From Nitrososphaerota archaeon (lineage in GTDB: Archaea; Thermoproteota; Nitrososphaeria; Nitrososphaerales; Nitrosopumilaceae): DNA of 64,000 nucleotides. Both the position numbers and the translations under genes were made by a program. Location of the stretch: the NCBI GenBank assembly GCA_028866655.1, contig JAGWHQ010000001.1, positions 1-64,000 of the forward strand, given 5' to 3'. The notes under the pieces were generated by a model, which had not been told where the DNA came from, did not search any database, and saw only the letters and a program-made list of their open reading frames with translations. This document shows, one piece after another, positions 5,394-14,229 of the stretch (the stretch's first letter is position 1; each line of letters opens with the position of its first letter).

Positions 5394-7064
5394 ATGGTTC
5401 TAAGTCTATCTCTAGTAAGTGACAAGAAATTTTCCGAGGCGTTAAAAAAATCTGCCCACTTGTTAAATTACTTGTCAACATATGTTGAGAGAGGAAACCC
5501 AATTCCATTATTTACAGAAAAACTAGAAGGCGAGCATAAAAAACTCAAAGATCCTAATTTGATATATCCAATATCAGACAATACATATATTCACATCAAT
5601 CCGCATTCCAACTCTGCAGACGGTTACGTGGAATATGCAATCATAGAACCTGATGAGCCAGACCGCGCACTAATGGAAAATGCCGACAAGCTATTTGCAT
5701 TACATGCAGGAACAATGAATCCTCCGATTGAGCTTACAGAGAGATTCAACATGATAGACCAATATCTTGACAAGACAATATTGTCTTCAAATGCATCAGT
5801 TGATTATTCCAAGTTTGATGCATTCAAAACAAAAAATTTGTCAGTGTTTGAAAAAGACATACCTAGTCTGAAATATCATTTTTTGCGCAAGCGTGCTGGG
5901 ATGGGATTACTAGACCCATTTTTGACGGACCCGCATTTGGAGGACATTTCTATAGTTGGAGCAGGCAACATGTATGTCATACACAAGATGTTTGGAGCAT
6001 TAAAATGTCCAGTCTTTTTGAGTATTGAAGAAATTGATGATTTAATTGTCAGCATGGCAGAACAATTTGGAAAGACAGTATCTCATGCAAAACCAGTCAT
6101 AGATGCCACACTTCCAGAGGGCTCTAGAATCAACATTGTATTTGGAAAGGATGTAAGTAGAAAAGGTACAAACGCCACAATCAGAAGGTTTGCAAGCACT
6201 CCTTTATCCATTACACAGATCATTCCAAGCAAGTCACTGCTTGCAATTGAAGCTGCCTATCTATGGATGATGCTTGCCGAAGGAATGAGTGTATTTATCA
6301 ACGGAGAAACAGCATCTGGAAAGACCACAACCATGATGGCCTTGACTGCATTTATCCCATCAAACTGGAAGATTGTAAGCATAGAGGATACACCTGAGCT
6401 TACACTGCCACATTCCAACTGGATAAGTGAGGTTACCAGAGATACTGGAAATGCAAATTCAAGTGTAACAATGTTTGATCTTTTAAAGGCAGCATTAAGA
6501 CAGAGGCCAAATTACATATTTGTAGGAGAAATTAGAGGTGCCGAAGCAAATATTGCATTTGGTGCAATGCAGACAGGTCACCCAGTAATTAGTACATTTC
6601 ACGCAGCAAACATGACTGCATTAATTCAAAGAATTACCAACCCTCCAATGAACATACCAAAAACTAACGTTGAGAATCTAAACATTGCAATGTTCCAGGC
6701 AGCAGTTACAGGTCCAGACGGTAAACGAGTAAGACGTGTCTTATCAATAAACGAAGTAATTGGATACAATCCAGAAGGTAATAACGTAATGTTCATTCCA
6801 GTATTCAATTGGGACCCAGGAACTGATACTGTCAAGTTCAGAGGTAAGGGAAGCAGTGCTTTGTTCATTTCCAAAGTTTTAGAGAAAAGAGGAATGTCAC
6901 GAAAAGATGAGGGTTTGCTATACGAAGAGCTTGCACTTCGAACCAAGATTTTAGACAAGATGGTTGAAAAGAAAATTTTCAATTTTTACGATGTCTATGA
7001 TTCCATATCTCGTTGCAGAGAGATTGGTCTTGAACAATTCATGAAGGAGCTTAATTCGTTATGA
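5394..7064 (+). CDS. arlI: Archaellum motor ATPase ArlI (FlaI), type II/IV secretion superfamily
   Basis: INGETASGKTTTMMALTAFIP Walker A, RQRPNYIFVGEIRGAEA, AMQTGHPVISTFHA. Confidence 0.92.
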   Translation: MVLSLSLVSDKKFSEALKKSAHLLNYLSTYVERGNPIPLFTEKLEGEHKKLKDPNLIYPISDNTYIHINPHSNSADGYVEYAIIEPDEPDRALMENADKLFALHAGTMNPPIELTERFNMIDQYLDKTILSSNASVDYSKFDAFKTKNLSVFEKDIPSLKYHFLRKRAGMGLLDPFLTDPHLEDISIVGAGNMYVIHKMFGALKCPVFLSIEEIDDLIVSMAEQFGKTVSHAKPVIDATLPEGSRINIVFGKDVSRKGTNATIRRFASTPLSITQIIPSKSLLAIEAAYLWMMLAEGMSVFINGETASGKTTTMMALTAFIPSNWKIVSIEDTPELTLPHSNWISEVTRDTGNANSSVTMFDLLKAALRQRPNYIFVGEIRGAEANIAFGAMQTGHPVISTFHAANMTALIQRITNPPMNIPKTNVENLNIAMFQAAVTGPDGKRVRRVLSINEVIGYNPEGNNVMFIPVFNWDPGTDTVKFRGKGSSALFISKVLEKRGMSRKDEGLLYEELALRTKILDKMVEKKIFNFYDVYDSISRCREIGLEQFMKELNSL

Positions 7065-8578
7065 TGGAAAAACTTTCTTTCAAGGAAAAACTTGCAGAGC
7101 TTAAAAGATCAGATGAAGATCTCTTGTATTTTATTGCATTTCTTTATGCATTGTCAACAGGAGAAGTTGGCTCGGTTGAGATGATAAAAAGCGGCCAGTC
7201 TTCTGGATATGGTAGATATTCAAATTCATTCAAAGAAGTATTTCGTTTAGGGGTAGGGTGGGGGTATGGACTGGCAAGGTCTTGTGAAATGATTGCAGCA
7301 AAACTAAAAGATAATGCAGATCCGTTAAAGCAGCTCTTAGTAAAATTATCCCAAGTGATAAGACTAGGAGATGAATTAAAAGTATTTTTTACAGATGAAA
7401 TGGCTTTTGCCATTCATACATTTACAATACGATATGAACGAAACTTAGAAACTCAAAAACTATTTCTTGAAATGTTTTACACAATTTCATCAACAGCGTC
7501 TTTTATGATTGCAGCCAACTCAATTATGGCAATGCTCATGGGAAACTCTAATTCAGAATCAGTATTTACAATGTCTTTTGTGGGCGTCATAGTAAGCATG
7601 GGCTCTTTTATTGTAATCATGTACATGATATTTCCAAAAGACAAATTGGCATCAGGCAAACATTCCAAGACACAAAAATTCAGAATGTCATTATTTGCAG
7701 CACTTGGTGCAGGCATTTCTATTGGAATTGTACTTACCATGATCAACGTAATACCTCTCACACTAGTCGTAGTTGTCGCAGCAGCCCCCTTGTTCGTCCC
7801 GGGATTTTTGGCACGAAGATTAGAAACAGAATTGCGTGGCCATGATGAGTGGTATCCGCCATTTATCAGACATTTTGGAGAGATTTACACGATGGTAGGT
7901 TCGATGGGACAATCACTTGATGCTGTACTTAGAAGCAATTTTGGACCCTTACAAACACAGATTGTCGCTTTCAAGAATCGTGTGAAAAACAGAATAGATC
8001 CAGAGATATGTTTTGAAATATTTTCCATGGAGGCTGGAACATCAGTTATTGAATCTGGCAACACCATCATGTCAAGAGCACTCCTCAAAGGATCAGATAT
8101 GAATCAAGTAGGAAACAAAGTTGCCGAGATTTCAGCAAAATTAAATGAGCTTCGGTCAAAGAGAATGCAGACATCAAGAACTTTTGAAACAATTATCATC
8201 GTATTACACGGGTTGACAATGGCAATCTTTGGTTTGATGAGTACACTAATTGAGGTATTCCACACTTTGTTATCAACAGTTCCAGTATCAAACAATGCAT
8301 TTACACTCAGCCCGATAGATCCAAATTTTGTACACATGATGCTACCACTAGTAATACTCATCACTTCAACCATCAATGCATTGGCAGTTAAAGTAGGTCA
8401 AGGAGGACTATTCAAGACAGTGTGGTTTAACATTGCAATGTTTACAGTGCTTGGAGGAATTACAATGTATGGTACAACTGCAGCTCTATCACAATTTCTC
8501 ACACAGCACATACTGGACACATATTCACCTGGCGGTGTTGCAGCAGGTACTCTTCCAGGAATTGGATCAGGAACCTAA
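7061..8578 (+). CDS. arlJ: Archaellum membrane platform protein ArlJ (FlaJ)
   Basis: Polytopic, T2SF-like repeats, overlaps arlI by 4 nt. Confidence 0.88.
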   Translation: MMEKLSFKEKLAELKRSDEDLLYFIAFLYALSTGEVGSVEMIKSGQSSGYGRYSNSFKEVFRLGVGWGYGLARSCEMIAAKLKDNADPLKQLLVKLSQVIRLGDELKVFFTDEMAFAIHTFTIRYERNLETQKLFLEMFYTISSTASFMIAANSIMAMLMGNSNSESVFTMSFVGVIVSMGSFIVIMYMIFPKDKLASGKHSKTQKFRMSLFAALGAGISIGIVLTMINVIPLTLVVVVAAAPLFVPGFLARRLETELRGHDEWYPPFIRHFGEIYTMVGSMGQSLDAVLRSNFGPLQTQIVAFKNRVKNRIDPEICFEIFSMEAGTSVIESGNTIMSRALLKGSDMNQVGNKVAEISAKLNELRSKRMQTSRTFETIIIVLHGLTMAIFGLMSTLIEVFHTLLSTVPVSNNAFTLSPIDPNFVHMMLPLVILITSTINALAVKVGQGGLFKTVWFNIAMFTVLGGITMYGTTAALSQFLTQHILDTYSPGGVAAGTLPGIGSGT

Positions 8579-8626: not shown

Positions 8627-9064
8627 TTAACTGGTACTAGTATTATAGACAGTCTTTACAAGTAAACTAGTCGCCGTCTGCATTACAGATGGCATATCAA
8701 AAGGCTTGTAGATGATAGCATCTGCTCCCAACTGTTCCAATTTAGTTATGGTGTCCCCTCGCACATCACCAGTTATCATTACTACGATTGCTTTTGGATT
8801 TGTCTTTTTAATATTTTCAAGTGCGTAAAAACCATCATAATCAGGCATCATCACATCTGAGAAAACAATATGTGGAGACATGTCATTGTAAATTGTGACT
8901 GCCTGCTTTCCATCAAATGCCTTGCCTATTACTTCAATGTTATAAATTTCTAGAAATTCTGTAAAAAGATTAACAGTATCCTCATCGTCATCTACTACAA
9001 GTGCAGTATAAGCTGGACGTTTAATGTTACCACCATCAGACATATAATCATCGTGGACATTCAT
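8627..9064 (-). CDS. Response regulator receiver (CheY-like)
   Basis: TALVVDDDEDTVNLFTEFL...HIVFSDVMMPDYDGFYALENIKKTNPKAIVVMITGD...GADAIIYKPF; receiver signature with D, T and K residues. Confidence 0.88.
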   Translation of the reverse strand: MNVHDDYMSDGGNIKRPAYTALVVDDDEDTVNLFTEFLEIYNIEVIGKAFDGKQAVTIYNDMSPHIVFSDVMMPDYDGFYALENIKKTNPKAIVVMITGDVRGDTITKLEQLGADAIIYKPFDMPSVMQTATSLLVKTVYNTSTS

Positions 9065-10352: not shown

Positions 10353-10913
10353 TTATTTTTTAACCAGTGCAAATATGCCGCCTGCGCCATAAGCCACTGC
10401 AATCATTATTCGCGATGTAATCACTGCAGTTGTTTGATTTGATATCAGCGATGTATCAAGCATTATTGCAATGGGTATTGCAGCAAGAGATATGGCACCT
10501 ACAATTATCTGTTCTAGATTTACAAGGTTACTGAATTTTTTCATAAAGAAAAATGTAGACGTATTTCCAAGACCAATTCCAAACAATATTAAATACTGGT
10601 AGAGGTGCGGGGTAATTCCTATGGTTGCAAACGGTGCAGCCCAACATAATCCATTAACAGCTTTAACAGCAGGAGGCCATGAGACACTATTTTTCATCCT
10701 GCCCTTGATTGAAGACAACAAAGTTCTGAACCTGGCTAAAATTATTCCAAATGTAATTGCAAAACTTCCAAACCAAATGATTCCATAGTAAAAAATTGGT
10801 TCCTTGTGTTCAAATGAGATCTCACTTAGAATTGAAGCAGAACCGACTGCTATTGCCACACCTACAAACAAAACTCCAAATGCGCGTCTTACTTCTAGCG
10901 GAGACTTTTGCAC
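10353..10913 (-). CDS. Polytopic membrane protein, unknown function
   Basis: 186 aa with several hydrophobic helices; between purK and purE on opposite strand. Confidence 0.6.
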   Translation of the reverse strand: MQKSPLEVRRAFGVLFVGVAIAVGSASILSEISFEHKEPIFYYGIIWFGSFAITFGIILARFRTLLSSIKGRMKNSVSWPPAVKAVNGLCWAAPFATIGITPHLYQYLILFGIGLGNTSTFFFMKKFSNLVNLEQIIVGAISLAAIPIAIMLDTSLISNQTTAVITSRIMIAVAYGAGGIFALVKK

Positions 10914-11594: not shown

Positions 11595-12872
11595 CTAATT
11601 TCCTCTATTTGATATCTGCATGACAGGACTTGAAAAGTATATTGGATATATTTTCCCAGTAGTTGGATGGTTATAGTTCCACCTCTTGTCCTGAGGATCA
11701 ATTTTCATAAATTGTGCAGCCATTGTAGGTGATAGCATTTTGTATGTCTCTTCGCCTATTGTCATCTGATTTGGTTGTGCAAGAGGCAAAATTTTCGAAG
11801 CTATTGTGATACTGTGTCCTATCAAATCAGGTTCAGAGCCAAGAACAACAATTCTATTTTTCCCGACATCTATCCCAATTCTTACATTAATTTTTGGCAG
11901 ACCAAAGCTTGCAAACATCGGGTTTAGTGAATGTGTAACTAACATGTTCATGGAGCGTGCACAACGTACTGCATTTTCTGCCATATTTCCAAAGTCTTTT
12001 AATTCTGGGAAAAATGCAATTACTGCATCGCCAGTATATTTTAGAACAAAACCTGCGTGTTTTGATACCACTACAGACATTTCCTCAGAAAATACTTTGA
12101 TCAAACCAGAGAGATCATCTGAGCTAAGCGATGTTGCAATTTTAGTAGAACCAACAATATCAACATAAAGAATAGCTGTATTGATCTCATTTTCAGGCCA
12201 CAGACTCAGGAACCTGTTTGAAATATACTTGAGAAATGCTTGAGAGTATGAATCACTTTGTTTTCTTTTGTATAATGAAAAATTTCTTTGTATTCGAGTC
12301 AAACTTTGAATCACAAACGCATCATCAGGTGTCATGATTTGAAAACTTTCAACGGGTTTTACTTGGGAGATTACAGATTCTAAATTTTCAAGGGGTACGA
12401 ATTTTTTTTCTATCACATCATAATACCCTTTTTCTCCCTCTACTGCTTGTGGCTCAAGTTTTACTTTGCTAGTTGTAAGGCCAAAAGGAAAAGATGTTTT
12501 TTGTTTATTTGCAGCAATTAGTATGACACTATCATATTCACTTAGTGCCAATCCTTGTTCATTTTCTACCCCGGAACTGATATCAATTATGCGAGAGATT
12601 GGAAATATGGAAATTTTTCCAGTGTTAGAGTTTGCCCTTATTACTTCAATCACATCATGCTCAGAGTTGTCAGATACCGTTGTCTGGAGTATGAATTTGT
12701 CCCTAAATTCAGATCTATACATGCCAGTACCTTTTGCAGCATGGACCTCAGAGCCAACCGTAGTTCCTCTACTCTTTGCTTTGACTATATTTACAGTAAT
12801 TCCCATCATATCAAGGGCATCAGTTACAGCAGTTAGGTCATTTCGTGGTAACTCTGCCTCTATTCGTATCAT
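11595..12872 (-). CDS. PII-like domain fused to class III adenylate/guanylate cyclase catalytic domain
   Basis: N-terminal ~105 aa aligns by eye with GlnB/GlnK (MIRIEAELPRNDLTAVTDALDMMGITVNIVKAKSRG...MYRSEFRDKFILQTTVSDN...ANSNTGKISIFPISRIIDISSG); C-terminal CHD motifs LYVDIVGSTKIATSL, LKYTGDAVIAFFPE, RIGIDVGKNRIVVLGSEPDLIGHSITIASKI. Confidence 0.8.
   Translation of the reverse strand: MIRIEAELPRNDLTAVTDALDMMGITVNIVKAKSRGTTVGSEVHAAKGTGMYRSEFRDKFILQTTVSDNSEHDVIEVIRANSNTGKISIFPISRIIDISSGVENEQGLALSEYDSVILIAANKQKTSFPFGLTTSKVKLEPQAVEGEKGYYDVIEKKFVPLENLESVISQVKPVESFQIMTPDDAFVIQSLTRIQRNFSLYKRKQSDSYSQAFLKYISNRFLSLWPENEINTAILYVDIVGSTKIATSLSSDDLSGLIKVFSEEMSVVVSKHAGFVLKYTGDAVIAFFPELKDFGNMAENAVRCARSMNMLVTHSLNPMFASFGLPKINVRIGIDVGKNRIVVLGSEPDLIGHSITIASKILPLAQPNQMTIGEETYKMLSPTMAAQFMKIDPQDKRWNYNHPTTGKIYPIYFSSPVMQISNRGN

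Positions 12873-12929: not shown

Positions 12930-14229
<1,300 letters not shown>

Follow-up and report, generated by a model that had tools for sequence, protein, structure and literature searches.

An archaeal gene of the acid-loving, ammonia-oxidizing genus Nitrosotalea encodes a genuine PII domain covalently joined to a class III nucleotide cyclase. Our tentative reading, to which we assign a probability of roughly 0.4, is that the product is a PII-gated and most likely adenylyl-type cyclase that arose a single time, in Nitrosotalea, when an Amt-type PII joined an archaeal cyclase. As a rule, PII proteins are free-standing trimers that act on many different targets. In the fusion, covalent attachment to the cyclase sets a single target, and a connection of nitrogen status with cyclic nucleotides can be tested on one purified protein.

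The architecture is not new to the literature. It was noted in a single sentence in 2020 for the Nitrosotalea protein A0A2H1FDM3, on the basis of Pfam matches, and read as a hint of c-di-GMP (PMC7646526). Passages of the N. devanaterra genome paper deal with PII genes located close to Amt genes and with a pH-homeostasis region containing two cyclase genes, the listed neighbours of which differ from those of the fusion gene; the fusion itself is not mentioned in these passages (PMC4836417). Full-text literature searches found no analysis of a PII-cyclase fusion beyond the sentence of 2020. Since c-di-GMP is made by GGDEF enzymes, while the products of class III cyclases are 3',5'-cyclic mononucleotides, the c-di-GMP reading is ruled out by enzyme class.

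Architecture of the fusion protein

The gene lies in the 64-kb stretch of DNA analysed here (the window), part of a 1.42-Mb genome in 93 contigs. Its open reading frame starts with ATG and has no internal stop. The nearest named relatives of the protein are from Candidatus Nitrosotalea assemblies, with 95% identity over the whole protein for N. devanaterra. An earlier note on this DNA had proposed a PII domain fused to a class III cyclase in a probable ammonia oxidizer; matches to Pfam P-II and Guanylate_cyc, profile searches and predicted folds bear out the fusion, and the host is indeed an ammonia-oxidizing archaeon.

The features are listed in Table 1. Structure models were built as monomers, and the full-length model has a pLDDT of 78. 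Between linker and cyclase, it places a small module with strands at residues 139-144, 147-152 and 157-160 and a helix at 161-171, followed by helices at 185-203 and 209-224. The module, which we call GYYD, matched no Pfam family and is common to the fusion and to PII-less cyclases of the same order.

Table 1 Features of the PII-cyclase fusion gene in the window.
Feature	Position in window	Strand	Basis
PII-cyclase fusion gene, 425 aa	11595..12872	-	uninterrupted ORF; 22 genomes of the genus have full-length orthologues, 70-97% identity
PII domain, residues 1-104	12561..12872	-	Pfam P-II 2-99; GlnB profile; AlphaFold/Foldseek PII fold
T-loop, residues 36-58; K47-G48 tip; Y52 aligned to GlnB Y51	12699..12767	-	
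Shortened C-loop, residues 82-87; G89/K90 equivalents kept	12612..12629	-	
Flexible linker, residues 105-136	12465..12560	-	low confidence (block means 42-51) in full-length model
GYYD beta-hairpin/helix module, residues 137-171	12360..12464	-	conserved in PII-less relatives
Helical segment ahead of cyclase domain, residues 185-224	12201..12320	-	conserved in PII-less relatives
Class III cyclase homology domain, residues 229-414	11631..12188	-	Pfam Guanylate_cyc; CyaB profile; Foldseek CyaC, 8jsf
D238, metal-binding Asp 1	12159..12161	-	every cyclase-domain row examined
K278 (adenine-specifying Lys) to D282 (metal-binding Asp 2)	12027..12041	-	every cyclase-domain row examined
D349, substrate-specifying Asp	11826..11828	-	D in all fused copies
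T356...K360, Asn/Arg transition-state positions	11793..11807	-	alignment

The N-terminal domain is a genuine PII

With the N-terminus alone, the Pfam P-II match was borderline (E = 2.9e-5; 24.8 bits against a cut-off of 25). A profile of the fused domain and its stand-alone PII relatives, searched against PDB sequences, matched Aquifex GlnB with E = 3.7e-19, and all but one of the 41 sequences listed carry PII or GlnK names, the exception being named 'Signaling protein'. Over residues 1-108, identity is 42% (E = 2.5e-23) to a stand-alone PII that the same genome encodes beside an Amt gene on contig C22. The AlphaFold2 model of this part (pLDDT 85, pTM 0.71) has the PII ferredoxin-like fold with a T-loop; the 50 best Foldseek matches shown from the PDB are all PII or GlnK structures (best E = 6e-9, probability 1.00), with TM scores of about 0.7-0.8 for the best of them. 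Despite the borderline Pfam score, the agreement of stand-alone PII identity, PDB profile and predicted fold settles that the domain is a genuine PII, and the GlnB likeness noted earlier for residues 1-105 holds. A generic ACT or ferredoxin-like domain is ruled out by the profile and fold searches. A comparison with viral structures, made alongside, returned weak matches (best E = 8.5e-4, TM 0.5).

Loss of canonical ligand residues from the fused PII

Ligand binding by methanococcal GlnK involves Thr29, Gln39, Gly87, Lys90, Phe92, Arg101, Arg103, Arg9 and Lys58, in sites that lie between subunits, and depends on a free C-terminus, where a tag displaced Mg and blocked proper 2-oxoglutarate binding (PMC8395244). 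The equivalent positions were examined in an alignment of 14 fused and 25 stand-alone Amt-type PIIs. In all 14 fused domains T29 is replaced by Asn and F92 by Ser or Thr; Q39 has become Thr, Gly or Phe, R101 Asp, and R103 Ser or Gly, and the G87/D88 equivalents are deleted. Of the ligand side chains only K90 (14/14) and K58 (13/14, one Arg) are kept. The C-terminus of the domain is not free, running on into the linker. In the stand-alone relatives from ammonia-oxidizing archaea (AOA), the C-loop deletion is likewise present and R101 is Asp, yet T29 (24 of 25, one Ser) and F92 (all 25) are retained. Ligand-residue loss is thus greater in the fused PIIs, and the T29 and F92 changes are confined to them.

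These losses bear on the model of the earlier note, in which the PII half binds MgATP or ADP and 2-oxoglutarate and thereby sets cyclase activity. The genuine PII fold, the retained K58 and K90 and the general logic of PII signalling speak for such a sensor. However, with the equivalents of T29, Q39, G87/D88, F92, R101 and R103 gone from all 14 fused copies examined, and with no free C-terminus where even a tag prevents proper 2-oxoglutarate coordination in GlnK (PMC8395244), canonical MgATP/2-oxoglutarate sensing is unlikely. The proposal that this half reads 2-oxoglutarate, ATP and ADP is therefore not supported; the fusion is probably not a textbook PII sensor, and we regard that model as quite improbable.

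The C-loop is short, as remarked earlier, but this is a trait of the subfamily rather than a peculiarity of the fusion, because the stand-alone AOA relatives carry the same deletion. It removes five residues, taking G87/D88 and leaving G89-K90, a correction to the earlier description; it is common to all sampled AOA Amt-type PIIs and absent from the GlnK of this genome (contig C38). At the T-loop tip, Lys at GlnB R47 and Gly at G48 are invariant in all 14 fused and all 25 stand-alone Amt-type proteins. Position 51 of GlnB is Tyr in 13 of the 14 fused domains and Phe in all 25 stand-alone proteins. Uridylylation of this Tyr by GlnD was ruled out, there being no GlnD_UR_UTase match in this genome.

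Two tandem PII genes (L052:7710-8036 and 8088-8414; C22:115709-116413) lie divergent from the Amt gene. Both products belong to the AOA subfamily with the five-residue C-loop deletion and Asp for Arg101, which makes canonical ATP/2-oxoglutarate binding by them doubtful.

The cyclase domain and its catalytic residues

Pfam Guanylate_cyc matched residues 231-388 above its cut-off (E = 1.6e-11). A profile search of the PDB with the cyclase domain gave CyaB (E = 1.6e-18) and CyaC (about 1e-17), and Foldseek with the full-length model gave CyaC (E = 1.5e-12) and the cytidylate cyclase 8jsf (E = 3.3e-12); PHROGs matches on this half were to unnamed families only. The class III homology domain thus has the expected profile, fold and both metal-binding Asp residues, and the motifs DIVGST, YTGDAV and EPDLIG singled out earlier correspond to D238, D282 and D349, with K278 in KYTGDAV. 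D238, K278 and D282 are present in every cyclase row examined. The D349 equivalent is Asp in all fused copies, and Asp (28) or Thr (4) in a class-wide sample of 32. The adenylyl-type Lys and Asp are thus both in place, and K278/D349 point to cAMP as the predicted product.

The transition-state Asn and Arg are replaced by T356 and K360 (ITIASKI); the pair is Thr-Lys in the fused copies, with Ser-Lys in one. K360 is conserved in 25 of 25 cyclase rows of one alignment and in 25 of 32 class-wide; the seven proteins with Arg there fall on separate tree branches. Random decay of the cyclase is ruled out, K360 being kept in related genera. The same positions are Ser-Lys in 8jsf and Asn-Lys in the PDB structure 7r65, and the Asn is described as dispensable in the cyclase Rv1900c, which has His there (PMC4886424). 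The solved 8jsf means that the Asn/Arg pair is not universal among cyclases, and given the conservation of K360 and the deviations in 8jsf, 7r65 and Rv1900c, Thr-Lys alone does not predict loss of activity. The Thr/Lys substitution noted earlier is real, then, while the worry it raised about activity is weaker than stated, Thr/Ser-Lys being the rule in related archaeal cyclases as well as present, as Ser-Lys, in 8jsf.

The substitutions nevertheless suggest an alternative in which the domain binds nucleotide without cyclizing it and serves as a nucleotide-dependent adaptor for PII partners. Thr for Asn and Lys for Arg fit this idea, as do a class III cyclase-like ATP-binding protein in the PDB (6yii) and the finding of no CRP-type cAMP receptor domain in 100 genomes of the family. 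Against it stand the conservation of all metal and adenine residues under strong purifying selection, and the departures from Asn/Arg in the solved 8jsf and 7r65 and in Rv1900c, which dispenses with the Asn (PMC4886424). We consider an inactive adaptor unlikely, if still worth weighing; the domain probably makes a cyclic nucleotide.

Catalysis of another kind is suggested by PADLOC. Its PycC model PDLC02367 scored 87 bits (E = 2.3e-25) on the cyclase domain, compared with at most 21 bits for two canonical cyclases of the class, which reached at most 32 bits with any PycC model. Together with the Lys in place of Arg, a feature also of 7r65 and 8jsf, this would fit a Pycsar-like defence cyclase producing a cyclic pyrimidine nucleotide for anti-phage signalling. 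The base pocket does not agree: 7r65, which we take to be the Burkholderia PycC, aligns Tyr and Trp where the fusion has the adenine-type K278 and D349. The adenylate cyclases CyaB and CyaC also outrank PycC structures in the PDB profile search. No Pycsar effector gene adjoins the fusion gene, whose neighbours are purE, orf197 and bioD (PADLOC gave orf197 a weak Cas2-type match only), and inheritance is vertical and syntenic. The likeness to PycC appears to be one of catalytic style and not of membership, and a defence role is highly improbable. PADLOC PycC models also match other AOA cyclases (L053:3730-4524, L054:3412-4386 and others) with up to 109 bits and without Pycsar context; in AOA genomes, annotation as Pycsar cyclases may be mistaken.

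Cyclic nucleotide signalling without a known receptor

Of 81 genomes sampled from the class, 72 have cyclase domains (PF00211), whereas the CRP-type cNMP_binding domain (PF00027) was found in 0 of 100 Nitrosopumilaceae genomes by a search that was positive in 10 of 14 control genomes; these archaea thus present cyclic nucleotide signalling without a known receptor. A fourth 'cyclase' of this genome (L055:2428-3180, contig C33) was rejected as a GTP cyclohydrolase III; its gene passes the Pfam Guanylate_cyc cut-off and lies in an apparent riboflavin cluster.

A PII-type cAMP receptor is conceivable, since the PII-like protein SbtB binds ATP, ADP, AMP, cAMP and c-di-AMP (PMC13249358). By analogy, the pocket of the fused or a stand-alone PII might bind cAMP or AMP, giving feedback on the cyclase or supplying the missing receptor. 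The absence of CRP-type domains from the 100 genomes and the divergence of the pocket from the ATP/2-oxoglutarate type are compatible with this, and SbtB is a precedent; on the other side, the fused domain has lost the adenine-flanking F92, and the idea is purely inferential. We think product sensing about as improbable as canonical sensing. A wider scheme, in which the cAMP circuit of Nitrosopumilaceae does without CRP-type receptors and has PIIs as both regulator and receiver, would have the Amt-type PII of Nitrosotalea wired to the cyclase, Amt occupancy setting cAMP through T-loop docking, and diverged PII pockets binding the product; this is a long shot.

Distribution, origin and locus

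In a search of 400 genomes of the class with the whole protein, the survey of the architecture that the earlier note had suggested, the full-length fusion was found in 22 of 32 Nitrosotalea genomes and in none outside the genus. When a PII profile was searched against 300 genomes of the phylum, the listed matches outside the genus were all in frames of at most 187 aa, and are therefore stand-alone PIIs. Two adjacent genes or a sequencing artefact are ruled out by low dN/dS and by intact copies, which occur in 22 genomes and also in named assemblies that were deposited separately. In Nitrosotalea sp. TS the gene is split; because purE, purK and bioD are split as well, we attribute this to an assembly fault, with sequencing errors rather than pseudogenes.

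The PII tree groups the fused domains in a single clade (100/99) and places the second Amt-linked PII nearest to it, the latter with weak support (90/42). In the cyclase tree, the fused clade (99/98) is nested in the PII-less GYYD family and adjoins PII-less copies of the same genus (94/90). The dN/dS of the PII part is 0.004-0.055, with pairs of dS up to about 1, and the other parts are similarly low; across all three parts values are mostly 0.004-0.06, the highest (0.06-0.16) coming from distant pairs with L043 and L017. Trees and substitution rates indicate a single origin and purifying selection on every part.

The gene order purE-fusion-orf197-bioD is kept wherever contigs reach, with local changes beyond these genes. 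In three members of the genus (G117, G097 and G106), purE and orf197 are adjacent, without the fusion gene or a recognizable remnant. One fusion followed by loss, or gain after the lineages of these three had split off, explains the pattern. Some nearly complete genomes of the genus are without the gene, so it is dispensable. It is not near the Amt genes found in the genome (contigs C22 and C4).

Among its neighbours in the window, orf197 (12930-13523, +) is divergent from the fusion gene and encodes a conserved protein of 197 aa that evolves fast and has no convincing match in Pfam; the gene adjoins bioD in fusion-less genomes too. Between purK and purE, on the other strand from these (10353-10913, -), lies a gene for a conserved protein of 186 aa that has long hydrophobic stretches and matches no Pfam family. 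By eye, genes for a secretion-type ATPase and a multi-pass membrane protein of the type IV pilus/archaellum kind occupy 5394-8578 (+), and a response-regulator gene lies near them (8627-9064, -).

Proposed mechanism

We propose that, in the Nitrosotalea lineage, a copy of an Amt-type PII became attached ahead of an archaeal cyclase protein that already existed. Rather than being an independent MgATP/2-oxoglutarate sensor, the PII part would act mainly by its T-loop and trimer surfaces, docking to a partner. The best candidates are an Amt ammonium transporter and, in mixed trimers, the Amt-linked stand-alone PIIs. Such trimers are attractive because the ligand sites of PII are located between subunits (PMC8395244), and a stand-alone PII could then supply some of the side chains missing from the fused copy. 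Docking or release would be relayed through linker, GYYD module and helices, changing the pairing of the cyclase halves and with it cAMP output. The PII half would thus be a docking and oligomerization module, reporting the state of an ammonium-related partner to the cyclase.

A PII-gated cyclase of this kind is consistent with the nearest PII relatives being encoded beside Amt, with a K47-G48 tip that is invariant while ligand residues are gone, and with the conserved metal Asp residues and K278/D349; the single fused clade, fixed locus and low dN/dS likewise argue for it. Several points weigh against it. Amt docking is suggested by conservation only, for a gene located away from the Amt genes, and a sister relation with the second Amt-linked PII is weakly supported. 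An assembly that accommodates both a trimeric PII and a dimeric cyclase is required. The lack of CRP-type receptors in the 100 family genomes and the dispensability of the gene also count against this reading.

Comparison with known systems

The closest known likeness of the PII half is to the stand-alone Amt-linked PIIs of AOA, which share with it 42% identity, the C-loop deletion, the Lys-Gly tip of the T-loop and Asp at R101. The fused copies differ from them in being one residue short in GGIT, in having Asn at T29, Ser or Thr at F92 and, at position 51, Tyr where the stand-alone proteins have Phe, and in the attached cyclase. With E. coli GlnB and the GlnK of Methanococcales, the fused PII shares fold, order of elements, K58, K90 and the position of the T-loop, but it is without most of the MgATP/2-oxoglutarate side chains and the free C-terminus of canonical PII/GlnK proteins.

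The cyclase half most resembles the PII-less GYYD-type cyclases of the same order, with 38-52% identity over about residues 124-415 and the same module and Lys360. These lack the PII, and in the two genomes compared (G117 and G106) they lie on a different contig from purE. CyaB (3r5g) and CyaC (1wc1) share the fold, the two metal-binding Asp residues and the adenine-specifying Lys, with a profile E of about 1e-18, whereas the fusion has Thr/Ser-Lys for Asn-Arg and a different regulatory domain. The PycC cyclases 8jsf and 7r65 both have Lys at the Arg position, and 8jsf has Ser at the Asn position; unlike these, the fusion combines adenine-type K/D base residues with a locus that has no Pycsar effector alongside.
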